Virus record (IMG/VR): IMGVR_UViG_3300042010_000261 | Location: 1 to 43,015 of that record | DNA from: a virus | Reading direction: 5' to 3' (one strand) | Length of the DNA stretch: 43,015 nt | In this document: one piece after another, positions 9,896 through 40,093 of the stretch | Layout: each line of letters starts with the position of its first letter | Position numbering within the stretch: position 1 is the first letter of the stretch | The notes under the pieces: generated by a model | Seen by the model: the letters and a program-made list of their open reading frames with translations, nothing else | Database searches by the model: none | What the model was told of the DNA's origin: nothing | Translations under genes and position numbers: made by a program

Positions 9896-10088
9896 TTTAC
9901 CGAAATGCCCTCAATGCGGCATGGCTCCTTCACTGAGGGTTCGTAGTCGGGGAATGAACTGGGGTTCGGCAGAGGTTCGCTGTTCGAACGGTTGCCCTGG
10001 CGTCCGCGCGGGATTTTCGTTCCCGCCTGATGGTGAGGCAGCGGCCCGGCAGTTGCTTCAGGAAAAATGGAAAGAACTTGTGAAGTGA
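9888..10088 (+). CDS. Small zinc-finger protein (Lar-like)
   Basis: A 66-residue protein overlapping the DUF1627 gene by eight bases, so probably coupled. It has CPQC (residues 7-10) and a second Cys pair in CSNGCPG, with Arg-rich beta strands between. This resembles the one-finger Lar/restriction-alleviation-like proteins of lambdoid phages. The spacing differs somewhat from classical Lar, so the functional call is weak. Confidence 0.65.
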   Translation: MTDLPKCPQCGMAPSLRVRSRGMNWGSAEVRCSNGCPGVRAGFSFPPDGEAAARQLLQEKWKELVK

Positions 10089-10131
10089 CTCAACGATACC
10101 ACGACCAAAAACTCATGAAGAGCGCACTGTG

Positions 10132-10281
10132 ATGATTAACCGAATTATCGAACAGGTGAAAGAGAAGGGCCGCATCATGACGGAGGATGTCGTCGCGATG
10201 TTTAACCTTCACCGAACCACCGTGGAGAAATACATCTGGATTGTCGTACAGCCTAGAGAGCATATCCGTCATGGCCGCTGA
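10132..10281 (+). CDS. 49-residue helix-turn-helix protein
   Basis: A short frame beginning MINRIIEQVKEKGRIMTEDV and continuing AMFNLHRTTVEKYI to a stop after HIRHGR. The helix, turn and recognition-helix pattern (MTEDVVAMFNLHRTTVEKY) fits a winged-helix/DUF977-like DNA-binding domain of phage early regions. No strong ribosome-binding site is visible. It lies 43 bases after the zinc-finger gene and is the last gene before composition changes to AT-rich. It may be a truncated relic. Confidence 0.5.
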   Translation: MINRIIEQVKEKGRIMTEDVVAMFNLHRTTVEKYIWIVVQPREHIRHGR

Positions 10282-10424
10282 GGTATCTTCAGTAGCAAGA
10301 GAAAAATCATAGAATATGATTTGAGACGATATTCAAATTCGGAGAGAGAGTGATAAATAGTCACTTAAGTAAGAATTCAGTACAGGATCATTAAAAAAAT
10401 CATTACTCTTTGTTTACTCTTTTT

Positions 10425-10463
10425 GCTTGAGATAGTGAAAACTGTCTCAAGCATTATTTTTTT
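10425..10463 (+). terminator. Intrinsic terminator before the AT-rich cargo
   Basis: GCTTGAGA pairs with TCTCAAGC across a 12-base loop (partly extendable), followed by ATTATTTTTTT. It lies in the 286-base gap between the replication genes and the OLD-like gene, insulating the cargo from PR transcription. The remainder of the gap is AT-rich with no supported gene. Confidence 0.7.
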
Positions 10464-10567
10464 AACATAATGCAAAGTTCTACACATCTGCGAGCGGAAA
10501 ATCTTGAGTTGACCTAAAAAACCGTATATATAGTACGTATAAAAACGACTCAAGCAAGGAATTGATT

Positions 10568-12310
10568 GTGGCTAACTCTATCACAAAACTACGTAGTATG
10601 AATGTGGAAAGTTTTCGAGGTCTCAAGAATGTAAATATATCATTTGGGGAGCGAATTACTGTTATTTGTGGTAAGAATGGCACATCAAAATCAACCATAC
10701 TTGGAATTATCGCCCAAATTTTTAGTTTTTCTCGTGACTATTCTAAAGATCCTGCGGAGTTGCTGGGGTCCTATCGGACACTTACAGGTAATCGCTTTAA
10801 ATCTCTATTTAGTGAGCACTTTAGGTTTTCAAGTAAATTTGATACACCTGGCGGGATGGAAGTGCAAATAACACTCTATGATGGTGCATTTGAAAAAGAA
10901 TTGAATAATTTAAGACTTGGTCTGGTTGACTCGACATATCATCAGAAAGCAAGGCCAGTTCTCAGGAATAACGACGTCTTAGGCAATAAAAATACCAGTC
11001 GTAATGTTACTCACCCTGTAATTTACTTGAGCCTTCAGAGACTTTTACCAATAACGCTGAGACCTGAATATAGTGAGCGCGATGTCCAGTATATCATTGA
11101 TAATAAAAAAGAAATACTATCAATGAACAGAAGGTTACTTATCAAGGAAAATGGAACGTCCATTACTGCTACCACAGGAACTATCGACTCAATGGTAGTG
11201 CATGGAGATAATTATGACCATGAATCGGTTTCTGTCGGTGAGGATAACGTTGGACAGATTATCCAAGCTATATTTTCTTTCAAAAGACTAAAGGAAGAAT
11301 TGAAAGATTATCATGGTGGCATGCTATTGATTGATGAAGCAGATGCTGGGCTTTTCCCTGCTGCGCAAATTGAATTAATTAACGTGCTAAAAAAAATGGC
11401 TAGTAAGCTTGATTTGCAAATTGTTATGACATCGCACTCACCTATCCTTATTGAGGAGGTGTTTAAATTAAGTAAAGTTGCTGATAAGGATTATAGGACA
11501 GTATATCTTACGGATACATATGGACCTATTTCAGCTAAAACAAATCTTTCATGGCCAGAAATTAATGCTGATCTGCTCGTTGATACCATAAAAGTTGATG
11601 CGGAAGAAGCATTCCCTAAAATAAATATTTACTTTGAGGATTTTGAGGCTTATTTGTTCTTCAAACAACTAATAACAGAAAGACATATCAATAAAATAAT
11701 CACTCCGCTAAAAGACGTAAATATAAGTTGTAGTACTATGTTAGATTTAATGGCACGGAAAATACCAGAGTTTATTAATAAAAGTATAATAGTTCTGGAT
11801 GGCGATGTTGTAAATGATAATGGCCAGAATGCAAAAAAAGCAAAATCTGAGAAGAGCCTGTGCTTATTACCAACGACTCTTCCGCCAGATCAGCTTTTGT
11901 TTGAATTTTTGTATAATTTAGATAAAGAAGATTTGTATTGGCAAAAGAATCAAGGTTTCACAAGACAGGTTTTTATAAGAATTAGTGGCGATATTATAGA
12001 TCGGCTCAATATAGTTGGAGAGAAAATATCTCTAGAAGATATTATTAAAAATTACAGAAAAGGTAAAAGTGAAGAGAGTGTAAAAGGAGAGCTTAGAAAG
12101 TTATTCAAGGCTTTTGCTCAAAATGATAAAATCCGTACGCTTTTAACTGGCCCAGTAAGTAAGAATCCGTTCAGATATTGGATTAACCAAAACCCAGAGC
12201 TAAAACTTGAATTTAAGAAAAAATTTGAAGCTTGCTTAATTAATGCCCTAATTAGTGGTTTTGGTATTGATTCCGGCAAAGTGTATGGTTACCTTCAAAT
12301 CGATAACTGA
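10568..12310 (+). CDS. OLD-like protein: ABC-type ATPase with C-terminal TOPRIM
   Basis: A 580-residue ATPase-nuclease candidate. The ABC/SMC-like ATPase has Walker A GKNGTSKST (about 35-43; Ser where Gly is usual), Walker B GGMLLIDEADAG (about 250-261) and the H-loop MTSHSP (about 287-292). A TOPRIM-like domain follows: acidic YFEDFEAYLFF (about 355-365) and IIVLDGDV (about 407-414, the DxD motif). This layout and length match class 1 OLD nucleases such as phage P2 Old, or a fused PARIS-type protein. GTG was chosen as start because AAGGA lies seven bases upstream; a TTG two codons earlier is too close. The gene is strongly AT-rich compared with its neighbours and is followed by a methylase. 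Anti-phage or self-protection roles are inferred. Confidence 0.8.
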   Translation: MANSITKLRSMNVESFRGLKNVNISFGERITVICGKNGTSKSTILGIIAQIFSFSRDYSKDPAELLGSYRTLTGNRFKSLFSEHFRFSSKFDTPGGMEVQITLYDGAFEKELNNLRLGLVDSTYHQKARPVLRNNDVLGNKNTSRNVTHPVIYLSLQRLLPITLRPEYSERDVQYIIDNKKEILSMNRRLLIKENGTSITATTGTIDSMVVHGDNYDHESVSVGEDNVGQIIQAIFSFKRLKEELKDYHGGMLLIDEADAGLFPAAQIELINVLKKMASKLDLQIVMTSHSPILIEEVFKLSKVADKDYRTVYLTDTYGPISAKTNLSWPEINADLLVDTIKVDAEEAFPKINIYFEDFEAYLFFKQLITERHINKIITPLKDVNISCSTMLDLMARKIPEFINKSIIVLDGDVVNDNGQNAKKAKSEKSLCLLPTTLPPDQLLFEFLYNLDKEDLYWQKNQGFTRQVFIRISGDIIDRLNIVGEKISLEDIIKNYRKGKSEESVKGELRKLFKAFAQNDKIRTLLTGPVSKNPFRYWINQNPELKLEFKKKFEACLINALISGFGIDSGKVYGYLQIDN

Positions 12311-12390
12311 TTGTTTTTCTGGTGAATTATTGTATGGCCATACCTTGCTTGTATTTGGTACAATATCGGCCTATACATATGAGGTGCTTT
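12311..12390 (+). promoter_or_regulatory. Inter-cargo region with a 12-bp palindrome and possible -10
   Basis: The 80 bases between the two cargo genes contain the perfect palindrome GTATGGCCATAC (12332-12343), the -10-like TACAAT about 15 bases downstream, and GAGG before the methylase start. This could be an operator and separate promoter letting the methylase be expressed independently. No convincing -35 was seen. Confidence 0.35.
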
Positions 12391-13251
12391 ATGCGGTTTA
12401 ATACGCCACTACGTTATCCAGGCGGTAAAGGTAAGTTATTCAACTTTATGAGTAAAATCATAGGGATGAACGATTTACAGGATCTGCATTACGCAGAGCC
12501 ATACGCCGGCGGTGCCGGTTTGGCGTTGAAGTTACTATTCAAAGAAAATGCTTCACAAATATACCTTAACGATTTGAACTTAGCTGTATATTCTTTTTGG
12601 AATAGTGTACTCAACCGAACTGAAGAATTATGCCATATGATCCTTACAACTGAAGTTTCTATGGATGAGTGGCATATTCAAAAGTCAATTATGACTAATC
12701 CTGAAAATAAGGATCTTCTCCAACTTGCTTTTGCTACATTTTTTCTTAACAGAACAAACCGCTCTGGAATCCTTAAAGGGGGGGTGATCGGAGGTAAGAG
12801 TCAGGACGGAAAATGGAAATTGGATGCCAGATACAATAAGCAAGATTTAATTCAAAGAATTAAACTTATAGCTGCGCAAAAGGATCGGATACATATTTAT
12901 AATCTCGATGCTAATGATTTTATTACAAAAGTTGTAAAAAATCTGCCAAATCACTCTTTGACATATTTTGACCCTCCATACTATGTCAAGGGGAAAGGTC
13001 TATATGAAAATCATTATTTACATGAAGACCATGTTGTCATCGCCAATAGGATACAGACTGAGATTCAAACACCATGGATAGTTTCATATGATAATGTTGC
13101 ACCTATTCGAACGATGTACAATTCATCAAAAACCTTATCTTATGGAATCACCTATAGCGCCCAAGAGCGCTATACAGGCGACGAAGTTATGTACTTTAGT
13201 GATGGCCTAAAGTACCCGGAATGTGCTGACCCGGCAAAATTTAAAGGGTAA
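12391..13251 (+). CDS. D12-class DNA N6-adenine methyltransferase
   Basis: A 286-residue Dam-like methylase. The N-terminal PLRYPGGKGKL and AEPYAGGAGLAL (AdoMet-binding motif I) and the catalytic DPPY in YFDPPYYVKGKG (about 195) are diagnostic of the MethyltransfD12 family, which methylates adenine at N6 using S-adenosylmethionine. In between, FLNRTNRSGIL is the conserved target-recognition neighbourhood. I chose the ATG giving MRFNTPLRYPGG because GAGG precedes it. AT content matches the preceding OLD-like gene, so the two look acquired together. Target sequence cannot be read from the protein. It may protect phage and host DNA from the neighbour, or from host nucleases. Confidence 0.92.
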   Translation: MRFNTPLRYPGGKGKLFNFMSKIIGMNDLQDLHYAEPYAGGAGLALKLLFKENASQIYLNDLNLAVYSFWNSVLNRTEELCHMILTTEVSMDEWHIQKSIMTNPENKDLLQLAFATFFLNRTNRSGILKGGVIGGKSQDGKWKLDARYNKQDLIQRIKLIAAQKDRIHIYNLDANDFITKVVKNLPNHSLTYFDPPYYVKGKGLYENHYLHEDHVVIANRIQTEIQTPWIVSYDNVAPIRTMYNSSKTLSYGITYSAQERYTGDEVMYFSDGLKYPECADPAKFKG

Positions 13252-13284
13252 TTAACTTCTCTTTTAAATGTAATTTGTCACTTT

Positions 13285-13310
13285 GAACATCATCTCTGCA
13301 GATGATGTTC
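13285..13310. repeat. Perfect 11-bp inverted repeat
   Basis: GAACATCATCT and AGATGATGTTC are separated by CTGC, immediately downstream of the methylase. No T run follows, so it is not a standard intrinsic terminator. It could stabilise the 3' end of the cargo transcript or be a protein site. Confidence 0.7.
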
Positions 13311-13384
13311 CTCTGGTCTTTGAACTTGTTCCGGCTGTTATTCCACTTATTTTACATAGACCTACATAGATCCTACGCCCCATT

Positions 13385-13410
13385 GCTTTAACAATTCGTG
13401 CTGTTAAAGC
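13385..13410. repeat. Perfect 9-bp inverted repeat upstream of the LexA box
   Basis: GCTTTAACA and TGTTAAAGC flank an eight-base spacer, 25 bases before the LexA box. It is a candidate second operator for the SOS-controlled gene. Confidence 0.6.
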
Positions 13411-13434
13411 ATTGATCAATCACACTCATAGGTG

Positions 13435-13454
13435 TACTGTATAAATATACAGTT
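13435..13454 (+). promoter_or_regulatory. LexA box
   Basis: TACTGTATAAATATACAGTT contains the full CTGT-N8-ACAG palindrome and differs little from the E. coli consensus. It lies 20 bases before the HumD-like start, so LexA should repress this gene until SOS induction. Confidence 0.92.
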
Positions 13455-13474
13455 TATTGACGAGGGTGATTATC

Positions 13475-13798
13475 ATGGGTTTTCCATCACCAGCAGCAGA
13501 CTACGCAGAACAGACGCTCACTATCACCAGCCTTTACGGATATGACGGCAATTGCCGCACCATCGAAACATCAGCCGGGTACGCGATCATAAACGTCGCC
13601 AGAAAGCCGGAAGTTGGTGACACAGTCTTGATTTCGTTCTGCGGCAGTCTGGACTTCGCAAAAGTGCAGGGGAAAGCGCTGATCACTCAGGATGGAGAGG
13701 CTATTGAGGGCGACGCGCTGGATGATGCAACCGTAATGGGAGTGGTAACGCACCTCCTGAGTCGAGTGACCGATACTGACAATCGGCCTGTGATCTAA
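13475..13798 (+). CDS. HumD-like protein (UmuD'-type, no self-cleavage segment)
   Basis: A 107-residue protein starting [13 protein letters not shown], i.e. exactly at the Gly that follows the RecA-promoted cleavage site of UmuD (Cys24-Gly25). It therefore resembles a pre-processed UmuD', like P1 HumD. The C-terminal beta fold is recognisable (GDTVLISFCGSLDFAKVQGKAL then DATVMGVVTH), and Lys63 aligns with UmuD Lys97. The GDSM segment bearing the catalytic Ser60 is absent, so it cannot be a protease. GAGG precedes the ATG and a LexA box lies just upstream, making it SOS-induced. A likely role is as a UmuD' substitute or modulator of a Y-family polymerase. Confidence 0.82.
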   Translation: MGFPSPAADYAEQTLTITSLYGYDGNCRTIETSAGYAIINVARKPEVGDTVLISFCGSLDFAKVQGKALITQDGEAIEGDALDDATVMGVVTHLLSRVTDTDNRPVI

Positions 13799-17520: not shown

Positions 17521-18204
17521 ATGTCATCTTGGGAATGTCCGTTTTGTGGCCGCCTGTCAGTCGCGGCCAAAATCCAACAAAAGTATAGTAACTATGTTGT
17601 TGACGCTGATACAAAGCAGGGAAAGCTTTTCGTGCAATCGTGGGTTCAGGTCTGTCCAAATCCTGATTGTAAGGAATTTACTTATACTTCAGAGATAGGC
17701 TCAGCGAAGATAGAAGGGAACAAGTATGTTATAGCAGAGCCCATCGAAAGTTGGATGCACCGCCCTCAAGGAGTAGTCAAACAGTTTCCAAATTACATTC
17801 CAAAAGCGATTCTTAATGATTATAGAGAATCTGCAATGATTGCGACGCTCTCACCAAAGGCATCCGCAACATTAGCGCGCCGATGTTTGCAAGGGATGAT
17901 AAGAGACTTTTGGGGCGTAAAAGAAAAGAATCTCTTTGAAGAGATTAAGGCCATTCAAGAAAAAGTCGACTCAGATACATGGCATGCAATAGATGCAATA
18001 AGAAGTATTGGTAATATTGGTGCCCACATGGAAAAAGACATTGATCTGATTATTGATGTCGACAAAGAGGAGGCAGAGCTACTCATTAGCTTGATTGAGA
18101 CGTTGCTTAGCGATTGGTATGTTGAACGAGAAAACAGACGACTTAGATCAGAGAAAATAGTTGCTGCAGCTGCAGGGAAAAAAGAGATGAAGCAACAAAA
18201 TTGA
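17521..18204 (+). CDS. DUF4145-type protein with N-terminal zinc ribbon
   Basis: A 227-residue cytoplasmic protein. The N terminus has a zinc ribbon (CPFC at 6-9, CPNPDC at about 45-50). The rest is the helical DUF4145 pattern: SPKASATLARRCLQGMIRDFWG, then WHAIDAIRSIGNIGAHMEKD and ELLISLIETLL. The ARRCLQ and NIGAHM segments are the family signature. DUF4145 proteins occur in mobile elements and sometimes beside defence genes, but their activity is not established. The gene has a good leader (GGAGG) and its own terminator, and lies outside the lysis cassette, so it looks like a moron. Confidence 0.82.
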   Translation: MSSWECPFCGRLSVAAKIQQKYSNYVVDADTKQGKLFVQSWVQVCPNPDCKEFTYTSEIGSAKIEGNKYVIAEPIESWMHRPQGVVKQFPNYIPKAILNDYRESAMIATLSPKASATLARRCLQGMIRDFWGVKEKNLFEEIKAIQEKVDSDTWHAIDAIRSIGNIGAHMEKDIDLIIDVDKEEAELLISLIETLLSDWYVERENRRLRSEKIVAAAAGKKEMKQQN

Positions 18205-20068: not shown

Positions 20069-22189
20069 ATGCGACAGGCCACGGCAGCGGAAGTCAGGCG
20101 TAACGCTTCCGCCATTCTCAAAGCCCCGCGCCGTATGCCTGTGGCTGAGGCGGTTCAGAAATTTATGCGCGTACCGATGGGAGCCGGAAACTCGGTCCCG
20201 TGGGATCCAGCCGTTGCCCCTTATGTGATTGAGCCGATGAACTGCCTCGCGATGCGTGAATACGATGCGGTGGTGTTTGTTGGGCCGGCACGAACGGGGA
20301 AAACTATTGGCCTGGTCGATGGCTGGGTGGTTTACAACATCGTCTGCGACCCGTCCGATATGCTCGTCGTTCAGATGACCGAAGAGAAAGCCCGCGAGCA
20401 CTCAAAAAAGCGACTGGCCCGAACCTTCCGTGTCAGCCCTGAGGTGGCAAAACGCCTGAGTCCGTTGCGAAACGACAACAACGTGCATGATCGTACTTTT
20501 CTGGCGGGCAACTATCTCAAAATCGGCTGGCCTTCAATCAACATCATGTCCTCGTCAGATTTCAAATGTGTGGCGCTCACGGATTATGACCGCTTCCCTG
20601 AGGACATTGACGGCGAGGGTGACGGTTTTACCCTGGCTTCCAAACGTACCACGACGTTTATGTCCGCCGGGATGACCCTGGTGGAGTGTTCGCCAGGCCG
20701 GGACATTCGCGACAGCAAATGGCGCCGCAAGTCACCCCATGAAGCACCACCAACAACAGGCGCGCTTTCTCTGTACAACCGTGGCGATCGTCGTCGGTGG
20801 TACTGGCCGTGCCCGCACTGTGGTGAATATTTTCAGCCGGAAATGTCGGCCATGACCGGCTACCGTGATGAGCCTGACCCGGTAAAAGCCAGTGAGGCGG
20901 CACATCTGCTTTGCCCACATTGCAACGGCATTATTACGGCAGACAAAAAGCGCGCGCTGAACGGGGTGGGAGTCTGGTTGCGTGAAGGTCAGAGTATTGA
21001 CCGTGACGGCAATATTTCCGGTGAGCCACGCCGTTCGCGCATTGCATCGTTCTGGATGGAAGGACCCGCAGCCGCGTATCAGACCTGGGCGCAGCTGGTG
21101 TACAAGCTGCTGACAGCTGAGCAGGAGTATGAGGCCACCGGCAGCGAAGAAACCCTCAAGGCGGTAATCAATACCGACTGGGGGCTACCGTATCTGCCGC
21201 GATCGGCCAGCGAACAGCGACGCGCCGATGCGCTGATGCTGCGTGCGGAGGATTACGGTAAACGCCTGGTTCCGCAAAAAGTGCGTTTCCTGCTGGCGGC
21301 CGTTGATGTCCAGGGCGGTAAAAAACGCCGTTTCGTCGTGCAGATTATCGGCTATGGCGAAAACGGTGAGCGCTGGCTGGTGGACCGCTACAACATCCGC
21401 CAGTCGCTGCGCAGCAATGAGCATGGTGAGGCGGAGCCGATCCATCCCGGCGCGTATCCGGAGGACTGGCATCTGCTGGTTTCTGATGTGCTGGAAAAAA
21501 CGTATGCACTTCAGACCGACCCGACACGCCGTATGCCGGTGCTGGCCATGGCCGTCGACAGCGGCGGTGAAGAGGGCGTAACCGACAACGCCTATAAATT
21601 CTGGAGACAGTGCCGCCGTGACGGCCTGGGTAAACGTGTTTACCTGGTCAAGGGTGACAGCACAAAGCGCCAGAAAATCATCACCAAAACCCACCCGAAC
21701 AATACCGAACGCAGCGACCGTCGTGCTGATGCGCGTGGCGAGGTGCCGGTCTATCTGCTGCAGACCGACCTGCTTAAGGACCAGCTCAGCAACAACCTCG
21801 ATCGCGAAACGCCAGGTGCGGGCTATATCCACTTCCCCGACTGGCTGGGGGAGTGGTTCTACGAGGAGCTGACCTACGAAGAGCGCGGTGTAGACGGCAA
21901 ATGGCGCAAGCCCGGCAAGGGCGCCAACGAAGCCTTTGACCTGTTCTGCTATGCCCACGCCGTGGCGGTCCTTCGCGGTTACGAAAAAATCCGGGATTGG
22001 GAAAAACCGCCGGCATGGGCGGAGCTGCAGGATCTGAACCCAAATATTTTTGAAGGGGAACGCCCCCGGGAGATAACCGTGAAAAAAACAAAACCCGTTC
22101 AAACGCCTGTTAAGGCTGAGCCTGAAAAGGACACAGCTCTCTCCGGCAGCTGGCTCGGGTCTTCCGGTAAGGGAGGCTGGTTGCTGTGA
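20069..22189 (+). CDS. Terminase large subunit, GpA family
   Basis: A 706-residue packaging motor and cos nuclease. The ATPase has a Walker A-like GPARTGKT (about 72-79), Walker B-like VALTDYDRFPEDID (about 168) and AGMTLVECSPG. Two CPHC pairs (about 250 and 285) form a zinc finger typical of the GpA family. The C-terminal nuclease has acidic LAAVDVQGGK and LAMAVDSGGEEG. It translocates DNA into the prohead and cuts cos to make cohesive ends. GAGGAG lies before the ATG. Length is a little above lambda gpA (641). Confidence 0.95.
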   Translation: MRQATAAEVRRNASAILKAPRRMPVAEAVQKFMRVPMGAGNSVPWDPAVAPYVIEPMNCLAMREYDAVVFVGPARTGKTIGLVDGWVVYNIVCDPSDMLVVQMTEEKAREHSKKRLARTFRVSPEVAKRLSPLRNDNNVHDRTFLAGNYLKIGWPSINIMSSSDFKCVALTDYDRFPEDIDGEGDGFTLASKRTTTFMSAGMTLVECSPGRDIRDSKWRRKSPHEAPPTTGALSLYNRGDRRRWYWPCPHCGEYFQPEMSAMTGYRDEPDPVKASEAAHLLCPHCNGIITADKKRALNGVGVWLREGQSIDRDGNISGEPRRSRIASFWMEGPAAAYQTWAQLVYKLLTAEQEYEATGSEETLKAVINTDWGLPYLPRSASEQRRADALMLRAEDYGKRLVPQKVRFLLAAVDVQGGKKRRFVVQIIGYGENGERWLVDRYNIRQSLRSNEHGEAEPIHPGAYPEDWHLLVSDVLEKTYALQTDPTRRMPVLAMAVDSGGEEGVTDNAYKFWRQCRRDGLGKRVYLVKGDSTKRQKIITKTHPNNTERSDRRADARGEVPVYLLQTDLLKDQLSNNLDRETPGAGYIHFPDWLGEWFYEELTYEERGVDGKWRKPGKGANEAFDLFCYAHAVAVLRGYEKIRDWEKPPAWAELQDLNPNIFEGERPREITVKKTKPVQTPVKAEPEKDTALSGSWLGSSGKGGWLL

Positions 22190-22401
22190 GGAAAGATGAT
22201 ATCTGGAAAACGCTGCTGATGGTGCGCCAGGCCTACCAGGATTCACTGGACGGCAAGAGCATTTCGTTCACCGGTGTGAACGGTCGCGCCATTACCAACC
22301 ACGACCCGAAAGCGCTGCGCGACGAGCTCGAATACTGGGAGCGTCGCTGGCGCACAGTTAACAGACGTGGTGGTTTGTACAAACTCGCTAACTTTCTGTA
22401 A
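22186..22401 (+). CDS. gpW-like head-tail connector
   Basis: A 71-residue protein with a GTG start overlapping the terminase stop by four bases. RKDDIWKTLLMVRQAYQDSL and RDELEYWERRWRTVNRR form the two helices flanking a short beta hairpin, as in lambda gpW. It fills the portal channel after packaging so that DNA is retained and the tail can attach. Order terminase-gpW-portal is the same as lambda A-W-B. Confidence 0.9.
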   Translation: MRKDDIWKTLLMVRQAYQDSLDGKSISFTGVNGRAITNHDPKALRDELEYWERRWRTVNRRGGLYKLANFL

Positions 22402-22409
22402 GGCGTTCT

Positions 22410-23930
22410 ATGGGCATTCTTGAAAGAACACTGGGGGCTATTTCCCCCGGGTGGGCAGCGGCGCGCGCGCGGGACAGACTCCGGCTCAATGCGTATGAAG
22501 CGGCCAACCCGTCACGGTTGCACAAGGCCAAAAAGCAAAGCCAGTCAGCGGACACCTCTGTGTTTGCTGCAGGGCAGTCCCTGCGGGAGCAGGCTAGGTG
22601 GCTCGATGAAAACCACGATCTGGTAATCGGCCTGTTCGACAAAATGGAAGACAGGGTGATTGGTGCTCACGGCATCCATGTTGAACCCCAGCCTCTCGAT
22701 CTGGAGGGTAATCTCCATTCCGAATTTGCCGGGCAGCTTTCGGCGCTCTGGGCGGAATGGTCAGTGCGTCCTGAAGTAACCGGCATGTTTACCAGGCCGG
22801 AAGCTGAGCGCCTGCTGTTGCGTTCAGCACTACGTGACGGGGAAGTGTTCACACAGCTGGTCAGAGGGAATGTGCCGGGCCTGCAGCATGCCACGTCTGT
22901 ACCGTTCTCACTGGAAATGCTGGAGGCGGATTTTGTGCCGTTCAACCTGAACAGCACCGCAGGCCAGCAGGTTCGGCAGGGCATCATCGTGAACGACTGG
23001 GGGCGTCCTGTCGGCTACCGGGTTTACAAATACCACCCGGCAAACATGACGCGGTTCAGCGCCGAACTCAAAACCGTCTCCGCTGACAACATGCTTCACC
23101 TGGCGCAACGCAAGAGACTGCACCAGCTGCGGGGTATCAGCCTGATCCACGGGGTCATTACCCGTCTGTCAGACATCAAAGATTATGAAGAGAGCGAGCG
23201 CGTGGCCGCCCGTATTGCCGCTGCGCTGGGGTTCTATATCAAGCGTGGCGATGCCCAGTCCCTTGGCGATGAAAATGAATTTTCTACGCCCGGTGGTCAG
23301 CGTCACTACGATATCGCGCCGGGCATGATTTACGACGAACTCCGGCCCGGCGAAGACCTGGGCATGGTGGAATCAAACCGCCCGAACGTTCATCTCTACG
23401 AATTCCGTAACGGGCAGATGCGTGCTGTGGCTGCAGGCACTCGCGGGAGCTATTCCAGCATCGCCCGGGACTATAACGGCACCTACAGCTCACAGCGTCA
23501 GGAGCTGGTGGAGAGCTTCGAAGGCTACAACGTCCTGCAGCAGTGGTTTGTCGGCCAGCACAGCCGTCCCGTTTACCGCGCATGGCTGGCGATGGTACTG
23601 CTGAGCGGCGTTGAAGTCCCGCCGGATGTGGATCCGAATTCCCTCTATAACGCGCTTTATCTCGGTCCGGTGATGCCCTGGATTGATCCGGGTAAAGAGG
23701 CCAACGCCTGGAAAGCCATTGTGCGTGGCGGTGCGGGTACTGAAGCGGAATGGGCGCGCGCCAGGGGAAAAAATCCGCAGGAGGTTAAACGCCAGCGGCT
23801 GCGTGAAACCGAATTTAACCGTCAACACGGGCTGGTGTTTGATTCCGACGCCGCCAACGACAAAGGAGCAATGCCAGATGCAACGACAAAAACAAACGAT
23901 GCCCGGCGTGAGCCGGACGATGATGATTAA
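22410..23930 (+). CDS. Portal protein, lambda gpB family
   Basis: A 506-residue portal monomer. The lambda-type portal features are visible: YEAANPSRLHK, LREQARWLDENHDLVIGLFD, FTRPEAERLLLRSALRDGE and VEPQPLDLEGN near the N terminus. A conserved core follows (IVNDWGRPVGYRVYK, LHQLRGISLIHGVI, YSSIARDYNGTYSSQRQEL). Twelve copies form the channel at one capsid vertex used for packaging and tail joining. The C terminus is rich in Asp/Lys and overlaps the protease-capsid gene by 53 bases. Confidence 0.95.
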   Translation: MGILERTLGAISPGWAAARARDRLRLNAYEAANPSRLHKAKKQSQSADTSVFAAGQSLREQARWLDENHDLVIGLFDKMEDRVIGAHGIHVEPQPLDLEGNLHSEFAGQLSALWAEWSVRPEVTGMFTRPEAERLLLRSALRDGEVFTQLVRGNVPGLQHATSVPFSLEMLEADFVPFNLNSTAGQQVRQGIIVNDWGRPVGYRVYKYHPANMTRFSAELKTVSADNMLHLAQRKRLHQLRGISLIHGVITRLSDIKDYEESERVAARIAAALGFYIKRGDAQSLGDENEFSTPGGQRHYDIAPGMIYDELRPGEDLGMVESNRPNVHLYEFRNGQMRAVAAGTRGSYSSIARDYNGTYSSQRQELVESFEGYNVLQQWFVGQHSRPVYRAWLAMVLLSGVEVPPDVDPNSLYNALYLGPVMPWIDPGKEANAWKAIVRGGAGTEAEWARARGKNPQEVKRQRLRETEFNRQHGLVFDSDAANDKGAMPDATTKTNDARREPDDDD

Positions 23931-25998
23931 CCCCCGCGCCAGCCTGGCGGGTGTCGATGCGGCAAACGACCAGTGCTGGTATGAAATCCGCGCGCTGGCC
24001 GCCGGACGCGTTGAAATCTTCCTCTATGACGTGATCGGCGGCTGGGGCATTACCGCCCAGCAGTTTGTCGCTGACTGTAAGGATGCGGGGGTGTTTGACG
24101 CCAGCGCTGTCGATTTGCATATCCACAGTCCCGGCGGCGATGTGATGCAGGGCTTTGCGATCTACAACACTCTGTCCCGGCTGAAAGCGAAAGTGGATAT
24201 CTGGGTGGACGGCGTGGCGGCCAGCATGGCCTCAATGATTGTCTGCCTGCCCGGCGCCACGGTGCACATGCCGGAAAACGCCTGGATTATGGTCCACAAA
24301 CCGTGGGGTGGTATCGCCGGGGATTCGGACGACATGCGCGATTACGCCGCCTGGCTTGATCGTAACGAAGCCCTGATGCTCAGCGCTTATATGAATAAAA
24401 CCGGTCTGGGGCAGGAGGAGCTGGAAGCGATGCTGAAAGCGGAGACCTGGCTCAACGGGGCCGAGGCGGTGGAGAAAGGTTTCGCCGACAAGCTTGAACC
24501 TGAACTGCAGGCCGCGGCCTGTGTGAATGAAAATAAACTGAAGGATTACCAGAACATGCCAGAACAGATTAAATCTCTTTTTGCGCCGCGCGCCGAAGCT
24601 CCGGTGAATCAGCCACAGCAACCTGCACCGGTACAGCAGCCCGCGCCGGTGCAGGCAAACCTTACCCCGCCCGCACCACAGCAGCCCGCGCCGCAGATGG
24701 CAAACATCGATGTTAACGCGCTGGCCCAGCAACTGCAGCAACAGATGCAGACGGCGAACGCGGAGCGCGTGAATTCCGTTTCCGCCGTGTTTGAGGCATT
24801 CCCGGCCTTTGCGACGCTGAGGGCGGAATGTCTCGCCGACTTCACCTGCAACGCCGAAAAAGCCCGCGATAAACTGCTGCAGGCGCTGGCGGCGGGCACC
24901 ACCCCGAGCGCCGGTCCGGGTGCCATTCATCTTTATGCCGGTAACGGCAATCTGGTCGGTGATTCCATTCGCGCTGCGGTAATGACCCGCGCGGGCTATG
25001 CGCAGGCCGAGAAGGATAACGCTTACAATGGTTACACCCTTCGCGAACTGGCGCGCGCCTCCCTGGTCGATCGCGGCATCGGTATCTCCGGCGCTGGCAC
25101 GGCACAGGCGATGGTCGGACTGGCGTTCACCCACAGCAGCAGCGATTTCGGCAATATCCTGATGGATGTGGCGCACAAAGCGGCGCTGATGGGCTGGGAT
25201 GAAGCCACCGAAACCTTTGAACAATGGACCCGTAAGGGCACGCTGACCGATTTCAAAACCGCACACCGTGTCGGTCTTGAATCACTGGCATCGCTTCGTA
25301 AGGTTCGTGCCGGGGCAGAATATAAATATGTCACCATCAAGGATCGCGGTGAGCCGATTGCGCTGGCGACCTACGGCGAACTGTTCAGCATCGACCGACA
25401 GACCATCATCAACGATGACCTGGACATGCTGACCCGTATTCCGCAGGCGATGGGGCTTGCTGCTCGTGCCACCGTGGGCGATCTGGTCTGGGCTGTTTTA
25501 ACCAGCAATCCAAAAATGTCGGACGGTAAGCCGCTGTTCCATGCCGATCACGGCAACTTGGTCTCAGCGGATCTCAGTATCGAAGGTCTGGATACGGCCC
25601 GTAAAGCGATGCTGCTGCAAAAATCCGGCGATCGTCGTCTGAACATTCGTCCGGCCTTTATGCTGACGCCTGTGGCGATTGAGTCACGGGCAAACCAGCT
25701 GATCAAATCTGCAAGCGTACCAGGTGCAGATGCCAACAGCGGTATTGTGAACCCGATCCAGAACTTTGTGACGGTAGCCTCTGAGGCTCGCCTGGATGAC
25801 AGCAGCCCCACGGATTATTACCTGACTGCAGCACAGGGACGCGACACTATCGAAGTGGCATATCTGGACGGTATTGATACGCCATATCTGGAGCAGCAGC
25901 AGGGCTTCACCGTAGACGGTGCTGCATTCAAGGTCCGCATTGATGCAGGTGTGGCACCGCTTGACTGGCGCGGCATGGTTAAAGTCACCAAAAAATAA
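23878..25998 (+). CDS. Fused ClpP-like prohead protease and major capsid protein
   Basis: A 706-residue two-part protein. Residues about 30-215 form a ClpP-type protease: HIHSPGGDV (82-89), catalytic Ser116 in GVAASMAS and His140 in MVHKPWGG. A Pro/Gln-rich linker (about 240-275) and a helix (to about 305) follow, then a HK97-type major capsid domain to the end. The protease and capsid should be separated by self-processing during prohead maturation. The same fusion occurs in the Gifsy prophages. AAGGAG lies nine bases before the chosen ATG; upstream in-frame ATGs fall inside the portal gene. Confidence 0.92.
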   Translation: MQRQKQTMPGVSRTMMINPRASLAGVDAANDQCWYEIRALAAGRVEIFLYDVIGGWGITAQQFVADCKDAGVFDASAVDLHIHSPGGDVMQGFAIYNTLSRLKAKVDIWVDGVAASMASMIVCLPGATVHMPENAWIMVHKPWGGIAGDSDDMRDYAAWLDRNEALMLSAYMNKTGLGQEELEAMLKAETWLNGAEAVEKGFADKLEPELQAAACVNENKLKDYQNMPEQIKSLFAPRAEAPVNQPQQPAPVQQPAPVQANLTPPAPQQPAPQMANIDVNALAQQLQQQMQTANAERVNSVSAVFEAFPAFATLRAECLADFTCNAEKARDKLLQALAAGTTPSAGPGAIHLYAGNGNLVGDSIRAAVMTRAGYAQAEKDNAYNGYTLRELARASLVDRGIGISGAGTAQAMVGLAFTHSSSDFGNILMDVAHKAALMGWDEATETFEQWTRKGTLTDFKTAHRVGLESLASLRKVRAGAEYKYVTIKDRGEPIALATYGELFSIDRQTIINDDLDMLTRIPQAMGLAARATVGDLVWAVLTSNPKMSDGKPLFHADHGNLVSADLSIEGLDTARKAMLLQKSGDRRLNIRPAFMLTPVAIESRANQLIKSASVPGADANSGIVNPIQNFVTVASEARLDDSSPTDYYLTAAQGRDTIEVAYLDGIDTPYLEQQQGFTVDGAAFKVRIDAGVAPLDWRGMVKVTKK

Positions 25999-26000
25999 CG

Positions 26001-26022
26001 ACCGTCATCTGGCGGTTTTTTT
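26001..26022 (+). terminator. Intrinsic terminator-like hairpin after the capsid gene
   Basis: ACCGTC and GGCGGT (one G-T pair) around a four-base loop, then seven T. It may lower expression of the genes downstream of the capsid. Confidence 0.7.
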
Positions 26023-26067
26023 ATTACGGAGCGGCGCGTGCTGCTCCTTTTTTGTCTGGAGAGAAAA

Positions 26068-26403
26068 ATGGCGAAAAATTATCAGCAGGACGGCAATACC
26101 CTTGATTTTCAGAATACCGGTGCGACCGATATTCTCTCAGGTGATGCCGTGCTTTCAGGAGCTCTGGTGGGTGTCGCTCACGATGACATCCCGGCAGGGT
26201 TGTGGGGTGTGCTGCATACGACGGGCGTTTTCGTTCTGCCAAAGGCGGCGGAAGCGGTCACTCTAGGCCAGAAGCTGTATCTGGCAGACGGAAAACTAAC
26301 GGTTGAAGCTGGAGAAGCGGCGGCACCGAATCCTCTGGCCGGTACCGCCTGGGCAGCTGCAGCTGCAGATGTCGATACTGTTCCGGTGCGGCTGGGTTAC
26401 TGA
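26068..26403 (+). CDS. DUF2190 capsid-associated protein
   Basis: A 111-residue beta-rich protein starting MAKNYQQDGNTLDFQNTGAT, with GGAGAG before its ATG. Features such as DILSGDAVLSGALVGVAHDD, GLWGVLHTTGVFVLPK and QKLYLADGKLT are characteristic of DUF2190 proteins, which lie next to major capsid genes and act as decoration or cement proteins. It overlaps the next gene (TGATG). Confidence 0.88.
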   Translation: MAKNYQQDGNTLDFQNTGATDILSGDAVLSGALVGVAHDDIPAGLWGVLHTTGVFVLPKAAEAVTLGQKLYLADGKLTVEAGEAAAPNPLAGTAWAAAAADVDTVPVRLGY

Positions 26404-26759
26404 TGAACCGCTTTCGTGCCCGACTGGCCCGTGCTGATGCCCGGATCTCCCGGGCATTTGCGGAAGCACTGCCGGCAGTCTTGTTTATCGGTACTGAGGT
26501 GCGTTCTGTCACCGTAATTTTCGAGACGCCCGATGCGCCGGTTGACGTTCCCGCCGGGGGACAAATTCAAGACCGCTCTCCGGCATTCAGCGCGCTAACA
26601 ACAGATATCGCCGGGCTTGAGAAGCATCACGGCGTGGAGATCAACGGCACGGCTTATCGTGTGACGCACGTCGGCGCTGATGAGGAAGGGCGGACCCGCG
26701 TCACGCTGGCGTATGGCGCACCGGGTAAGGTGCAGCCGGACATCAATGAGTGGAGCTGA
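26403..26759 (+). CDS. Head-tail joining protein, Gifsy/FII-like
   Basis: A 118-residue connector. MNRFRARLARADARISRAFAE helix, then VLFIGTEVRSVTVIFE and VEINGTAYRVTHVGADEEGRTRVTL, a beta barrel like lambda gpFII and the Gifsy-2 homologue that was once called an ATP-binding sugar transporter-like protein. The place between DUF2190 and tail genes fits a stopper that closes the head. It is coupled to the genes on both sides. Confidence 0.75.
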   Translation: MNRFRARLARADARISRAFAEALPAVLFIGTEVRSVTVIFETPDAPVDVPAGGQIQDRSPAFSALTTDIAGLEKHHGVEINGTAYRVTHVGADEEGRTRVTLAYGAPGKVQPDINEWS

Positions 26760-26760
26760 T

Positions 26761-27423
26761 ATGGCACGTGAGTCCAGACTGCGACGGGATTTGCCCGTCG
26801 ATATCGATGTGGATGCCATCTGGCGGATAGCGGAGCATATCGGTGCCACCCATAAACAGTTTCGGGCGGCATACTCCCGCGCCCTGAAACGTACCGCCGC
26901 CACTTTACGTAAAAAAGCGATGGCAGACCTGAAAGACGGGCTGGCTCCCCGCAGCCTGGATCTGGTGCGCCGGCGTCTGCTTTCCTTTCGTCTCGATCGC
27001 GCTTCTCAGTCACAACTTGATAATTTTCGTCTCTGGTTCGGCCTGAATGCCATCAAGGTAAAGGATCTCAAAGGGCGAATTAACGGGCGGGTAAGACCTC
27101 ATCATTCTCGGCGGGATAAGTCCACCGGGCGATTTATTAAGGCGCGACGTCAGGCAGAAAACGCCGGATTCACACCAAAAGGCAGTCTGCTTTCCCCACG
27201 GACATTTGAAAACGGTGAGGTGGCACGCTCCCGTCGGGAAAACAGACGCACGGTGGTCATACGCGATCCTGACACCCGGCGGACCCGGGAGGCAGAAGTG
27301 GATATTTATGAGCCGATGCTCAACTACATCGAGGATAACGCCTTTGCGGAGGCGATGGAGATTTTTATGCATCACTTTGAAACCGATCTGCGCGGGCGCG
27401 TGAAAGCCCGTATTTCTGTCTGA
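26761..27423 (+). CDS. Tail completion protein, gpZ-like
   Basis: A 220-residue very basic protein starting one base after the previous stop. Features: an N-terminal segment (RLRRDLPVDIDVDAIWRIAEHI), AYSRALKRTAATLRKKAMADL and a second region ending EAMEIFMHHFETDLRGRVKARIS. This agrees with the minor tail/tail-completion proteins of the gpZ (Phage_tail_Z) family found before tail terminators. It should mature the tail so that it can join the head. Another start 27 codons upstream overlaps the previous gene and was rejected. Confidence 0.7.
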   Translation: MARESRLRRDLPVDIDVDAIWRIAEHIGATHKQFRAAYSRALKRTAATLRKKAMADLKDGLAPRSLDLVRRRLLSFRLDRASQSQLDNFRLWFGLNAIKVKDLKGRINGRVRPHHSRRDKSTGRFIKARRQAENAGFTPKGSLLSPRTFENGEVARSRRENRRTVVIRDPDTRRTREAEVDIYEPMLNYIEDNAFAEAMEIFMHHFETDLRGRVKARISV

Positions 27424-27431
27424 GGTGGACC

Positions 27432-27986
27432 ATGGCTGAGCCATTGCTGCTTGGGCAGTATCACGATGCCGTTACCGGCGCGCTGAAAAACATTGCGTGG
27501 GTGCGGGACGCCGATGCGTACCCGGAAAAAAATATCCCCCGCTTTACCGGACTGATCACCCCGGCAGTCTATTTCTCCATTAACGGCTGGGAGCAGGGCG
27601 GGGGCAACGAGGGGCAGCTCAACGTAAATCTGTCCTGCGATTTGTTCGTGGTGGTGGATGCAGCCGGGGCTGGTGTCAGTCGCCCGGAAATTTTCCTGCG
27701 CACGGCGGCAGCGGACATTACCCAGTGGATTGACGGCCAGCTGTTCGGCCTGACCAGTCTGGAGCCTGCCGTGTTTATCGATGCGGCACGCGATGAGTTT
27801 GATCCGCGCATGGATGATTACCTTGTCTGGCGCATTTCATTTACCCAGGCAGCCGCCTTTGGTGCCGATCCGTTTGCACAGCTGAATGCCCCGCTGAAAG
27901 CTGCCTGGCTGGGCAAGGCACCGGATATCGGTCGCGCACATGTGGACGATTACCAGCTGATATACGAGGCAAAACCTGATGAGTGA
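27432..27986 (+). CDS. Putative tail terminator (Mu gp37-like)
   Basis: A 184-residue protein with AVYFSINGWEQGGGNEGQLN, CDLFVVVDAAGAG, ADITQWIDGQLFGLT and YLVWRISFTQAAAFG, an alpha/beta layout of tail terminator proteins in Mu-like and P2-like tails. GAGG precedes the ATG. It would cap the tail tube and provide the head-binding surface. It overlaps the start of the spike gene by eight bases. Confidence 0.7.
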   Translation: MAEPLLLGQYHDAVTGALKNIAWVRDADAYPEKNIPRFTGLITPAVYFSINGWEQGGGNEGQLNVNLSCDLFVVVDAAGAGVSRPEIFLRTAAADITQWIDGQLFGLTSLEPAVFIDAARDEFDPRMDDYLVWRISFTQAAAFGADPFAQLNAPLKAAWLGKAPDIGRAHVDDYQLIYEAKPDE

Positions 27987-28602
27987 AATCGAGGGCGATT
28001 TACAGCGCCGTCTGGCGAATATCGTGCGGCGCGGGGTGATTCATTCCGTTAAGCATGACGGTATACCGAAATGCCGGGTGGACCTGGGCGACATCACCAC
28101 CACCTGGCTGCCGCTCTGCCAGGGATTCTCGGGTACTAACCGGGCAGACTCCAATCCGTATGCGGTGGGGGATGCGGTCACGGTGCTGTCGGAGGCGGGC
28201 GAACTCAATAATGGCCGGGTGTTTCCGGGCTGGAATACCGGCGGTCTGCCGGTGCCGGCGGGAAGCGACAGTGAACATATCACCCGCTACGGGGATGGTA
28301 CTGAAATCCGTTATGACCGTGCCGCACATGCCCTGACCATCACCCTTGCAGAGGGGGGGACATACAAAATCATCGGGAAAGGCACGCTGGACGGCCCGGT
28401 GGAAATCACCGACACCCTGACCGTTCAGGGGAAAACGCAGATAAATGCCGACACGAACGTGACCGGAAATATCGGGGCGACACAGGAGATTTCGGACGGT
28501 ACCGGAAAAATGAGCGGGATCCGCGAAACCTACAACGGCCATGACCATAAAGAAAATGGTGACGGCGGTGGTACCACGAATCCCCCAAATCAAAAAATGT
28601 GA
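27979..28602 (+). CDS. Baseplate spike gpV (Mu gp45-like)
   Basis: A 207-residue membrane-piercing spike. OB-fold N-terminal domain (IVRRGVIHSVKHDGIPKCRV, CQGFSGTNRADSNPYAVGD) is followed by a beta-helical part (LDGPVEITDTLTVQGKTQIN) and an apex ending NGHDHKENGDGGGTTNPPN. The HxH there is the iron-binding site at the tip of P2 gpV and phi92 spikes. Three copies would form the needle that penetrates the outer membrane. It is followed by a terminator-like hairpin. Confidence 0.92.
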   Translation: MSEIEGDLQRRLANIVRRGVIHSVKHDGIPKCRVDLGDITTTWLPLCQGFSGTNRADSNPYAVGDAVTVLSEAGELNNGRVFPGWNTGGLPVPAGSDSEHITRYGDGTEIRYDRAAHALTITLAEGGTYKIIGKGTLDGPVEITDTLTVQGKTQINADTNVTGNIGATQEISDGTGKMSGIRETYNGHDHKENGDGGGTTNPPNQKM

Positions 28603-28623
28603 CCTGCCGCGGCAGGTTTTTTT
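28602..28623 (+). terminator. Intrinsic terminator after the spike gene
   Basis: ACCTGC-CGCG-GCAGGT, perfect six-base stem, with TTTTTTT after it. It lies before the sheath gene leader (TGGAG). Confidence 0.85.
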
Positions 28624-28640
28624 ATGCCTGGAGAAAATGA

Positions 28641-30110
28641 ATGGCGAATTTACATGGTGTGGAAACGATCGAACTGACATCCGGAACGGTCGCGGTCACG
28701 ACGATCCAGACGGCCATCATCGGCCTGGTGGGAACCGCGCCGGATGCTTCCGCCGGAACCCCGGCCAGTGCGGCCACGGGGACTCCCATTCTGGACAATG
28801 TCGTGGATTTTACAGCGACCATCACCGGCAGGGCGGGCAACGTGATTCTGGTGGAAGCCGTAGCCGGTATTCCCGATGCCGAAAATCCGGCGGAGGTTGA
28901 AACCTCCGCCGTCTGGGGGGCGACCGGGGCGAAACTGACCATCACGCTTGGCTGCGATGAAACCGGGAAGCTGACGGCTACCCCTGCCGATGTTGTTGCT
29001 GCGGTGGGTGCGGTGCAGGACGTGAAAGTGACCGCAACGGGAAGCGGTAGCGGTATTGTCTCACCGTTCAGTCTGCAACTTGCAGGGGGCGAGGATGAGC
29101 CGTTTCCGCTGAATACGCCGGTGGCGATTGTTGGCACCACGATGCTTTCGCGTCTTGGTGAAAAAGGCACGCTCAAACAGGCACTGATGGAAATCAACGA
29201 CCAGCGAAATGCCCTGACGGTGGTGGTGCGCGTGGCGGATGGGGCCGATGAAGCGGGGAAACGCGCTGCAGTTCTGGCCGGGATCGGCGCACTGTCGTCC
29301 GCGAAAACCGTGACGACGTATCAGCCCCGGATCCTGATTGCGCCGGGGTTCAGTGAGGATGATGCTGTGGGCAAGGCGCTGGAAACCATGGCAGGAAAAC
29401 TGCGGGCGGTGGCGTATGTTGACTGTGCCTCCGGAGCCAAGCTGCAGGAGGTGGTTCAGCGTCGCCAGTCCTACGGCATGCGTACTGAACTGTTGCGCCC
29501 GCGTGTGCAGGTCAGTAACGCCGGAGGCCAGCTGGTTTACCGTCCGTATTCTGCATTTGCGGCAGGCCTACGTGCCCGCATCGATTTCGAGAAGGGCTGG
29601 TGGTGGAGCAAATCCAACCAGGACATTAATAATATCCTCGGCGTGGAGCTGATCGACGAGTTTATTCTCGGCGATGAAAACTGCGACGCGAACCTGCTCA
29701 ACATGCAGAACGTCTCCACCATTATCCGCCGTGCGGGGTTTAAACACTGGGGGAACCGTCTGTGTGGTACCGACCCGCAGTGGCGATTTGAATCAGTACG
29801 CCGCACCGCCGACGTCATCGAGGACAGTATTCAGGAAACGATGCTGGAATACGTTGACCGCCCGCTGGACAGGGAGAATGCCGACGACATTATCGGCACG
29901 ATCAATGCCTATATGCGCCAGCTGGTCGGGCTCGGTGCCATTTTTGGCGGCCGCGCCTGGCTGGATGAGGAGCTTAACACTGCAGAGAGCATGGCGGCGG
30001 GCGTGCTGTACATCAACTACGACTTTGGTCCGAAATCGCCGACTGAGCTTATCAGCCTGCGCGTCCGGGTGAATAACAACTATGCGCTTGAGGAGATGCT
30101 GGCAGCATGA
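28641..30110 (+). CDS. Contractile tail sheath protein
   Basis: A 489-residue protein with the sheath core visible: TPVAIVGTTMLSRLGEKGTL, RILIAPGFSEDD, FAAGLRARIDFEKGWWWS, LWNRLCG-like WGNRLCGTDPQW, then RRTADVIEDSIQETMLEYVD and the C-terminal arm ISLRVRVNNNYALEEML. It forms the contracting sleeve around the tube, as in P2 FI and Mu L. The Ala/Thr/Gly-rich insert of about 130 residues near the N terminus is probably a surface domain. The stop overlaps the tube start (ATGA). Confidence 0.95.
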   Translation: MANLHGVETIELTSGTVAVTTIQTAIIGLVGTAPDASAGTPASAATGTPILDNVVDFTATITGRAGNVILVEAVAGIPDAENPAEVETSAVWGATGAKLTITLGCDETGKLTATPADVVAAVGAVQDVKVTATGSGSGIVSPFSLQLAGGEDEPFPLNTPVAIVGTTMLSRLGEKGTLKQALMEINDQRNALTVVVRVADGADEAGKRAAVLAGIGALSSAKTVTTYQPRILIAPGFSEDDAVGKALETMAGKLRAVAYVDCASGAKLQEVVQRRQSYGMRTELLRPRVQVSNAGGQLVYRPYSAFAAGLRARIDFEKGWWWSKSNQDINNILGVELIDEFILGDENCDANLLNMQNVSTIIRRAGFKHWGNRLCGTDPQWRFESVRRTADVIEDSIQETMLEYVDRPLDRENADDIIGTINAYMRQLVGLGAIFGGRAWLDEELNTAESMAAGVLYINYDFGPKSPTELISLRVRVNNNYALEEMLAA

Positions 30111-39638: not shown

Positions 39639-39658
39639 TACTGTATATAAAAACAGTA
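39639..39658 (+). promoter_or_regulatory. LexA box upstream of umuD
   Basis: TACTGTATATAAAAACAGTA carries CTGT-N8-ACAG and is close to the E. coli umuD operator. It lies 15 bases before the umuD ATG. Confidence 0.93.
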
Positions 39659-39673
39659 TTCGAGGTATGCGTA

Positions 39674-40093
39674 ATGGAATTTATCAGACCTGCAGAACTG
39701 CGAGAAATTATCGCGCTTCCGCTTTTCAGCGACTTAGTCCAGTGTGGTTTCCCCAGCCCAGCGGCTGATTATGTTGAACAGCGTATAGATCTTAATGAGT
39801 TACTGGTGTCACATCCGAGCTCAACGTATTTCGTAAAAGCCGCGGGCGACTCAATGATCGAGGCCGGTATTAGCGACGGTGATCTGCTGGTGGTGGATAG
39901 CTCTCGTACTGCTGAACACGGAGATATCGTAATCGCCGCGGTAGAAGGGGAGTTCACAGTCAAACGTCTGCAGCTCCGCCCGACTGTTCAACTCAATCCG
40001 ATGAACAGCGCGTTTTCGCCAATTATAGTCGGCAGTGAAGATACACTGGACGTCTTCGGGGTTGTCACCTTTATCGTAAAATCTGCGAGATGA
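39674..40093 (+). CDS. umuD: UmuD, SOS polymerase V subunit
   Basis: A 139-residue protein, same length as E. coli UmuD. RecA-stimulated self-cleavage is predicted at Cys24-Gly25 ([15 protein letters not shown]) with catalytic Ser60 (GDSM) and Lys97 (FTVKRL), all in the exact E. coli positions. The processed form UmuD'2 joins UmuC in polymerase V for error-prone lesion bypass. The LexA box upstream makes it SOS-controlled. The gene overlaps umuC by four bases. Confidence 0.96.

Follow-up and report, generated by a model that had tools for sequence, protein, structure and literature searches.

The DNA analysed here, called the window, is the complete 43,015-nt virus record IMGVR_UViG_3300042010_000261 of IMG/VR (positions 1 to 43,015). 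It carries an AT-rich island with two genes, one for an ATPase resembling the OLD nucleases and one for a DNA methylase of the D12 class (Table 1). The GC content of the island is 0.355, compared with 0.546 in the left flank, 0.506 in the right flank and 0.509 over the whole window, and a search of 5,426 E. coli genomes found nothing closely similar to the island at the DNA level. A first-pass annotation, made from the letters of the window, had placed the two-gene AT-rich island correctly and had rightly seen a perfect hairpin behind it. It had also set a terminator before the cassette: a stem is indeed present there, but 1.9 such patterns are expected by chance in the region.

The ATPase matched the Pfam models AAA_15 (E 1.1e-17) and AAA_21, and its family corresponds to PHROG 3940 (E 2.5e-166). 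The protein has the architecture of OLD proteins, with an N-terminal ABC ATPase bearing Walker A and B motifs and a C-terminal TOPRIM domain bearing a glutamate and a DxD motif. The Pfam TOPRIM models did not match it, and no Pfam restriction endonuclease domain was found in it. Residues E357-D358 and D411-x-D413 were unchanged across 37 relatives, with identity down to 25%. An hhalign alignment with a retron-I-B-like ATPase-Toprim protein covered both catalytic motifs with a probability of 96.7. In a model of the isolated C-terminal domain (pLDDT 95.8), the glutamate follows strand 1 and the DxD motif follows strand 3. Foldseek searches with this isolated domain against PDB and BFVD gave nothing significant, the best match being the TOPRIM domain of XccOLD (E 0.18). 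Motif, profile and predicted topology together give good support to the assignment as a TOPRIM domain, with a weak structural score, and the 580-residue ABC ATPase with a TOPRIM-like end of the first-pass annotation is thereby upheld. For the full-length AlphaFold2 model (pLDDT 88.9, pTM 0.59), the top PDB match was TsOLD (6p74, E 2.2e-12), followed by retron Eco8, PtuA and GajA proteins. By sequence, similarity to TsOLD was low (phmmer E 9e-5).

Among the OLD, PARIS and GajA families proposed earlier for a profile check, the OLD likeness stood, with TsOLD as the top match, while the ATPase falls by sequence in a family of its own, PHROG 3940, outside PARIS, Gabija and P2-Old. Membership in these systems or in a retron was rejected, as the partners are missing and the PADLOC and NCBIfam scores are confined to the ATPase core. 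The PADLOC scores against AriA and GajA (1e-19 and 1e-17) arise because that core is common to them. Neither DUF4435 nor AriB was matched in the Pfam and PADLOC scans, in which weak AriA and AriAB matches fell within the core. No UvrD-like Gabija helicase GajB lies beside the ATPase in the cargo slot, and no reverse transcriptase occurs among the neighbouring open reading frames (ORFs), which serve phage replication and lysis (a check of proteins, not of a retron RNA).

Table 1. Position of the cassette, its motifs and its surrounding signals in the window.
Feature	Position	Strand	Details
Variable cargo slot	10291-13385		Flanks match related lambdoid prophages to ~10290, and again from ~13386
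Terminator-like hairpin with T-run, 5' of the cassette	10424-10453	+	1.9 such patterns expected by chance in the region
ATPase, 580 aa (OLD-like ABC protein, TOPRIM-like domain at its C terminus)	10568-12310	+	GTG start; AAGGA just 5'
ATPase Walker A, GKNGTSKST	10670-10696	+	G35, N37 and K41 invariant
ATPase Walker B, LLIDEAD	11321-11344	+	D256 and E257 invariant
TOPRIM motif 1, E357-D358	11636-11641	+	Invariant in 37 relatives
TOPRIM motif 2, DGD 411-413	11798-11806	+	Both D invariant in 37 relatives
Methylase promoter	12335-12364	+	TGGCCA -35 (12335-12340), 18-bp spacer, extended -10 TGG-TACAAT (12359-12364)
D12-class DNA methylase, PD-Lambda-5_B family, 286 aa	12391-13251	+	ATG start; MethyltransfD12; PDLC04018
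Methylase catalytic motif DPPY	12970-12981	+	Invariant in 10 aligned relatives
Perfect 11-bp inverted repeat, 3' of the cassette	13285-13310	+	Perfect hairpin

The methylase matched Pfam MethyltransfD12 (9e-16) and, over residues 1-280 of its 286, the PADLOC model PD-Lambda-5_B (PDLC04018, E 1.9e-123). PD-lambda-5 is a proven anti-phage system, which acts on all but one of 10 coliphages tested and which Vassallo et al. termed a compacted prophage version of a restriction-modification (RM) plus abortive infection (Abi) system (PMC9519451). It was maintained in a host deleted for the mrr region (PMC9519451), which would fit a methylase that is active in vivo and makes foreign marks. The cassette of the window resembles PD-lambda-5 in its methylase family, in consisting of two genes and in being prophage-borne. 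It differs by having an OLD-like ATPase-TOPRIM protein in place of the ParB-like A component. Neither of the two ParB-like hidden Markov models gave a match anywhere in the window, and PD-Lambda-5_A was not among the PADLOC matches listed for the ATPase, whereas ParB-like neighbours of methylase homologues were recognised by PADLOC as PD-Lambda-5_A, with E values down to 1e-195. Most likely, judging from these sequences, the cassette is a sibling of PD-lambda-5 in which the partner has been swapped and the effector would be an OLD-like nuclease.

Exchange of partners was seen among 40 viral loci whose methylases were at least 36% identical: the partner was the ATPase in 13, the ParB-like protein in 25 and both in one, and the last locus met a contig end without a partner. 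Three-gene loci made up 36 of 80 genomic ATPase loci, counting in a divergent ParB-like subfamily (VYDGNRR). About 26 partner changes were found on the methylase tree, of which well-supported branches force at least 7-10. The partner labels on this tree are slightly noisy because the VYDGNRR subfamily was missed in labelling, the Bacteroidota 'A' clade being partly ATPase plus ParB-like. In the closest swap, between L161 (ATPase) and L201 (ParB-like), the two methylases are 81% identical. Thus, as read from these comparisons, partners of the methylase have been swapped repeatedly, and comprise ParB-like PD-Lambda-5_A, the ATPase, both of them, or HerA/NurA. The last, a third kind of partner, consists of HerA-like and NurA-like genes adjoining the methylase, with the ATPase in L083 (4495-9654) and without it in L006 (3986-8428). 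The ParB-like and NurA-like partners had no Pfam match, the ParB-like ones being named by PADLOC.

Conversely, the ATPase was rarely found alone. A profile search with the ATPase yielded 80 loci in genomes representing species and a further 78 on virus contigs. Three of the genomic loci end at the ATPase, leaving 77 evaluable, and in 72 of these a methylase of the present family lies within 4.5 kb of it. The methylase was also present in all six phage records with the ATPase. The five exceptions were two Pasteurellaceae, one genome whose methylase is located on a different contig, and two ATPases inside other RM operons. In these last two, the ATPase family occurs within an NgoPII type II operon, with the NgoPII endonuclease and a C5 methylase (L090, 3656-7091), and within a type I operon with HsdM/S/R (L062, 1659-9156). 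Pasteurellaceae-type prophages likewise have the ATPase without the methylase, so that some relatives evidently do without it. These Pasteurellaceae-type ATPases (L149-L156, L045) carry an N-terminal extension of ~55 residues, have intact TOPRIM residues and no adjoining methylase, and represent natural stand-alone versions.

Gene order and strand were variable. With A for the ATPase, M for the methylase and P for the ParB-like gene, the arrangements A-M, P-M-A, A-P-M, P-A-M, M-A and convergent were observed, and the linkage is therefore more than common descent of a single arrangement. An independent sample of 369 separately drawn genomes contained the ATPase in three, including the genome that had seeded the draw, and the methylase adjoined it in all three. 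Only three candidates per genome were scored for the ATPase, which may therefore be undercounted in this sample. Of its 18 intact methylases, 17 adjoined either the ATPase (3) or PD-Lambda-5_A (14). The expectation in the first-pass annotation that the two genes co-occur elsewhere was thus confirmed.

A further property of the methylase came from its promoter. In the clade of the window, the ~80-bp gap between the two genes contains a conserved ATGGCCAT. Family-wide, TGGCCA lies 16-19 bp (mostly 17) ahead of a TANNNT -10 element, which is usually of the extended TGn type, a spacing that identifies TGGCCA as the methylase promoter's -35 box. Compared with counts expected from Markov resampling, it was found at this position for 39 of 150 methylases at less than 90% identity (0.33 expected), 25 of 96 at less than 70% (0.18 expected) and 17 of 75 at less than 60% (0.16 expected). 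The next palindrome at the same position occurred three times. TGGCCA was absent from the -35 position upstream of the ATPase (0 of 105) and of the ParB-like gene (0 of 62). It was present in 29 of 55 loci in which 45-140 bp part the methylase from its partner, compared with 3 of 74 in which the methylase abuts its partner. It accompanies the methylase with either partner, in loci of the PD-lambda-5 type as in those of the ATPase type, and across phyla (Streptococcus, enterobacterial and other phages). An element of this shape, kept in front of the methylase but not of its partners, is most readily understood as the site that the enzyme itself recognises. We infer that TGGCCA is the sequence modified by the methylase, on a base that may be A or C, and that the enzyme controls its own expression through it. 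In the window itself, 11 TGGCCA sites were counted for 15 expected, which is neither a clear avoidance nor an enrichment.

Published methylomes give independent support for this target. In Acinetobacter baumannii A118, induction of the orphan 'DNA adenine methylase' MT2 led to modification of TGGCCA, called as m4C at position 4 (PMC10287943). In Shewanella algae, the same motif with m4C at position 4 was tied to the type II-alpha enzyme E1N14_009720 (PMC8340859), SMRT data being the source for both species. In Photorhabdus luminescens, TGGCCA was fully modified and called as m6A, with no firm assignment of the enzyme (PMC6092372), and an alpha-class orphan methylase of Chania was predicted to recognise it (PMC5005818). 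The D12 part of the 'D12 adenine methylase' in the first-pass annotation therefore held, but 'adenine' became uncertain, since in two species the modification by alpha methylases at TGGCCA was called as m4C. MT2, E1N14_009720 and the Chania enzyme are comparable to the present family in being annotated as adenine or alpha-class methylases, with no cognate nuclease, and in the TGGCCA motif, which is measured or predicted for them and predicted for the family here. They differ in being described as orphans, whereas methylases of the window's family are rarely without an ATPase or a ParB-like partner.

The place of insertion was compared in 68 related prophage stretches, retrieved with the protein encoded at 13472-13798, 3' of the island. 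Similarity of the relatives to the window ends at ~10075-10290 on the left and returns at ~13386-13435 on the right. In the window, the slot between these borders holds the ATPase and the methylase only, and in L269, L271 and L277 it is empty, with just 212 bp between the flanks. Other relatives carry AbiLi/AbiLii (L263, 4071-5817; L301, 4070-5816), a lone OLD-like ATPase-Toprim gene (L256, 3812-5320), a type II RM pair made up of a C5 methylase and a restriction-type protein with HATPase (L275, 2689-5854), an SMEK_N protein (L319, 4802-5866), or PRTase-CE and NADAR genes (L278, 2818-4477). Such differing contents indicate that the slot is a place of cargo exchange in lambdoid prophages, often of the defence type, and that the pair had rightly been called cargo.

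Taking together the domains with their intact active-site residues, the linkage, the exchange of partners with a proven defence protein, the hotspot and the promoter motif, all of which are observed, we judge it quite probable that the two genes form a prophage-borne anti-phage system, a sibling of PD-lambda-5 in which the methylase would self-mark TGGCCA and the ATPase would serve as nuclease effector. According to this proposal, the methylase would modify the TGGCCA sites of the lysogen and its prophage as a mark of self, and would keep its expression constant through the -35 TGGCCA of its promoter, which it would bind or methylate. The ABC head of the ATPase would sense a cue of phage infection, upon which the TOPRIM domain would cut nucleic acid. 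Methylated self DNA would be spared, or the ATPase would be kept inactive by it. The predicted parts of the proposal are that the pair defends against phages, that the methylase of this phage targets TGGCCA and that methylation gates the ATPase. The defence role in the first-pass annotation appears likely. New relative to that annotation are the B component of PD-lambda-5, the hotspot, the PHROG 3940 family and the methylase promoter with its -35 TGGCCA.

Several observations weigh against this proposal. PD-lambda-5 is strong on T-even phages, which is atypical for simple restriction; the two Pasteurellaceae genomes have no methylase anywhere, although the TOPRIM residues of their ATPase are intact; the published orphan methylases are likened to the present family by annotation and motif rather than by sequence; and most of the known OLD nucleases lack sequence specificity (PMC10568477), which makes a direct reading of TGGCCA methylation hard to account for. 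We considered how the ATPase may be triggered. If it worked as in a two-gene RM system, cutting DNA with unmethylated TGGCCA, its close coupling to the methylase and the self-regulated promoter with TGGCCA would be accounted for. The mostly missing sequence specificity of OLD nucleases, the Pasteurellaceae ATPases without methylase, and the fact that no target-recognition domain was seen in the ATPase make us entertain such restriction only tentatively. Alternatively, the methylase may keep a modification role of its own, with the ATPase as an Abi effector triggered by an attack on modification or by another phage cue, and not by unmethylated DNA. To this we give a chance just short of even. 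It agrees with the description of PD-lambda-5 by Vassallo et al., with OLD-ABC modules being described as backup effectors of BREX (PMC12839542), with the ATPases inside type I and NgoPII RM operons, and with retron and Gabija effectors being among the nearest solved relatives of the ATPase. Against it, no separate restriction enzyme lies beside the methylase in the window and in most relatives, and the one-for-one replacement of ParB-like protein and ATPase in virus contigs suggests a direct partner of the methylase. Between a response to a phage cue, with tolerance given by the methylase, and a direct reading of methylation, the evidence leans to the former, because of the activity of PD-lambda-5 on T-even phages, the unspecific OLD nucleases and the Pasteurellaceae copies. 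The probabilities of the proposal and of these alternatives overlap, because the latter are sub-versions of how the ATPase is triggered.

The two genes could also be unrelated morons, an OLD-like Abi gene next to an orphan phage methylase guarding the phage from host restriction. Anti-restriction methylases are common in phages, the two genes have separate signals (the terminator-like stem and the methylase's own promoter), and the ATPase can occur without the methylase. This is improbable in view of a linkage that persists across phyla with changing gene order, in the genomic loci and the independent sample alike, and of the methylase never being without ATPase or ParB-like protein in evaluable viral loci of at least 36% identity. 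Returning to the preferred proposal of a PD-lambda-5 sibling, a broader version of it appears somewhat better supported than not: a single TGGCCA methylase family, autoregulated via its own -35 element, would supply the self-marking core to a set of defence systems whose effectors can be exchanged (OLD-like ATPase-TOPRIM, ParB-like PD-Lambda-5_A, both, or HerA/NurA), and the published 'orphans' would be halves of such systems.

The individual parts of the cassette are known. OLD proteins of class 1, such as P2 Old and TsOLD, share the ABC ATPase and C-terminal TOPRIM, TsOLD being the top full-length structural match, but are defined as single genes, whereas the present family has a near-universal methylase partner. 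Gabija GajA, PARIS AriA/AriB and the OLD protein of retron I-B have a related ATPase and TOPRIM architecture; unlike these, the window has no UvrD helicase, separate AriB or reverse transcriptase beside the ATPase. The BREX OLD-ABC backup effectors and the ABC-ATPase-anchored systems (PMC12839542 and its ref. 52) are also TOPRIM-linked OLD-ABC proteins adjoining modification systems, but there the modification module is BREX. A review of the OLD family recognises in it only a single-gene, a helicase-linked and a retron-linked class (PMC10568477). For the pairing of ATPase and methylase, the exchange of partners with PD-lambda-5 and a target encoded in the promoter, no prior account was found in the papers searched; the catalogue of Krishnan et al. 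2020, outside that search, may list the pairing. These observations add a methylase-linked group to the OLD nucleases, and PD-lambda-5, for which no worked-out mechanism was found in the literature searched, can now be approached by comparison, as a methylase that stays the same while its effectors change. A TGGCCA self mark and an autoregulatory switch are predicted for it, and both are testable. The same arrangement may explain why TGGCCA methylases look like orphans.

Elsewhere in the window, a PhoP-like response regulator, read by eye, adjoins the integrase (1-2035), so that the prophage is probably inserted next to phoP in an enterobacterial host. A contractile-tail sheath protein occurs together with a lambda-type gpA terminase (20069-30110), as in a mosaic phage. 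Directly behind the cassette, a LexA-box-like palindrome, CTGTATAAATATACAG (13437-13452), precedes a short UmuD-like ORF with an FPSPAADY motif (13472-13798), and another, CTGTATATAAAAACAG (39641-39656), precedes a UmuC-like gene of the IMS family (40090-41364). The AT-rich right end encodes a HEPN_RiboL-PSP domain protein (41552-42319), possibly a second cargo or defence gene, and an AT-rich stretch 3' of the lysis genes encodes a DUF4145 protein (17521-18204).

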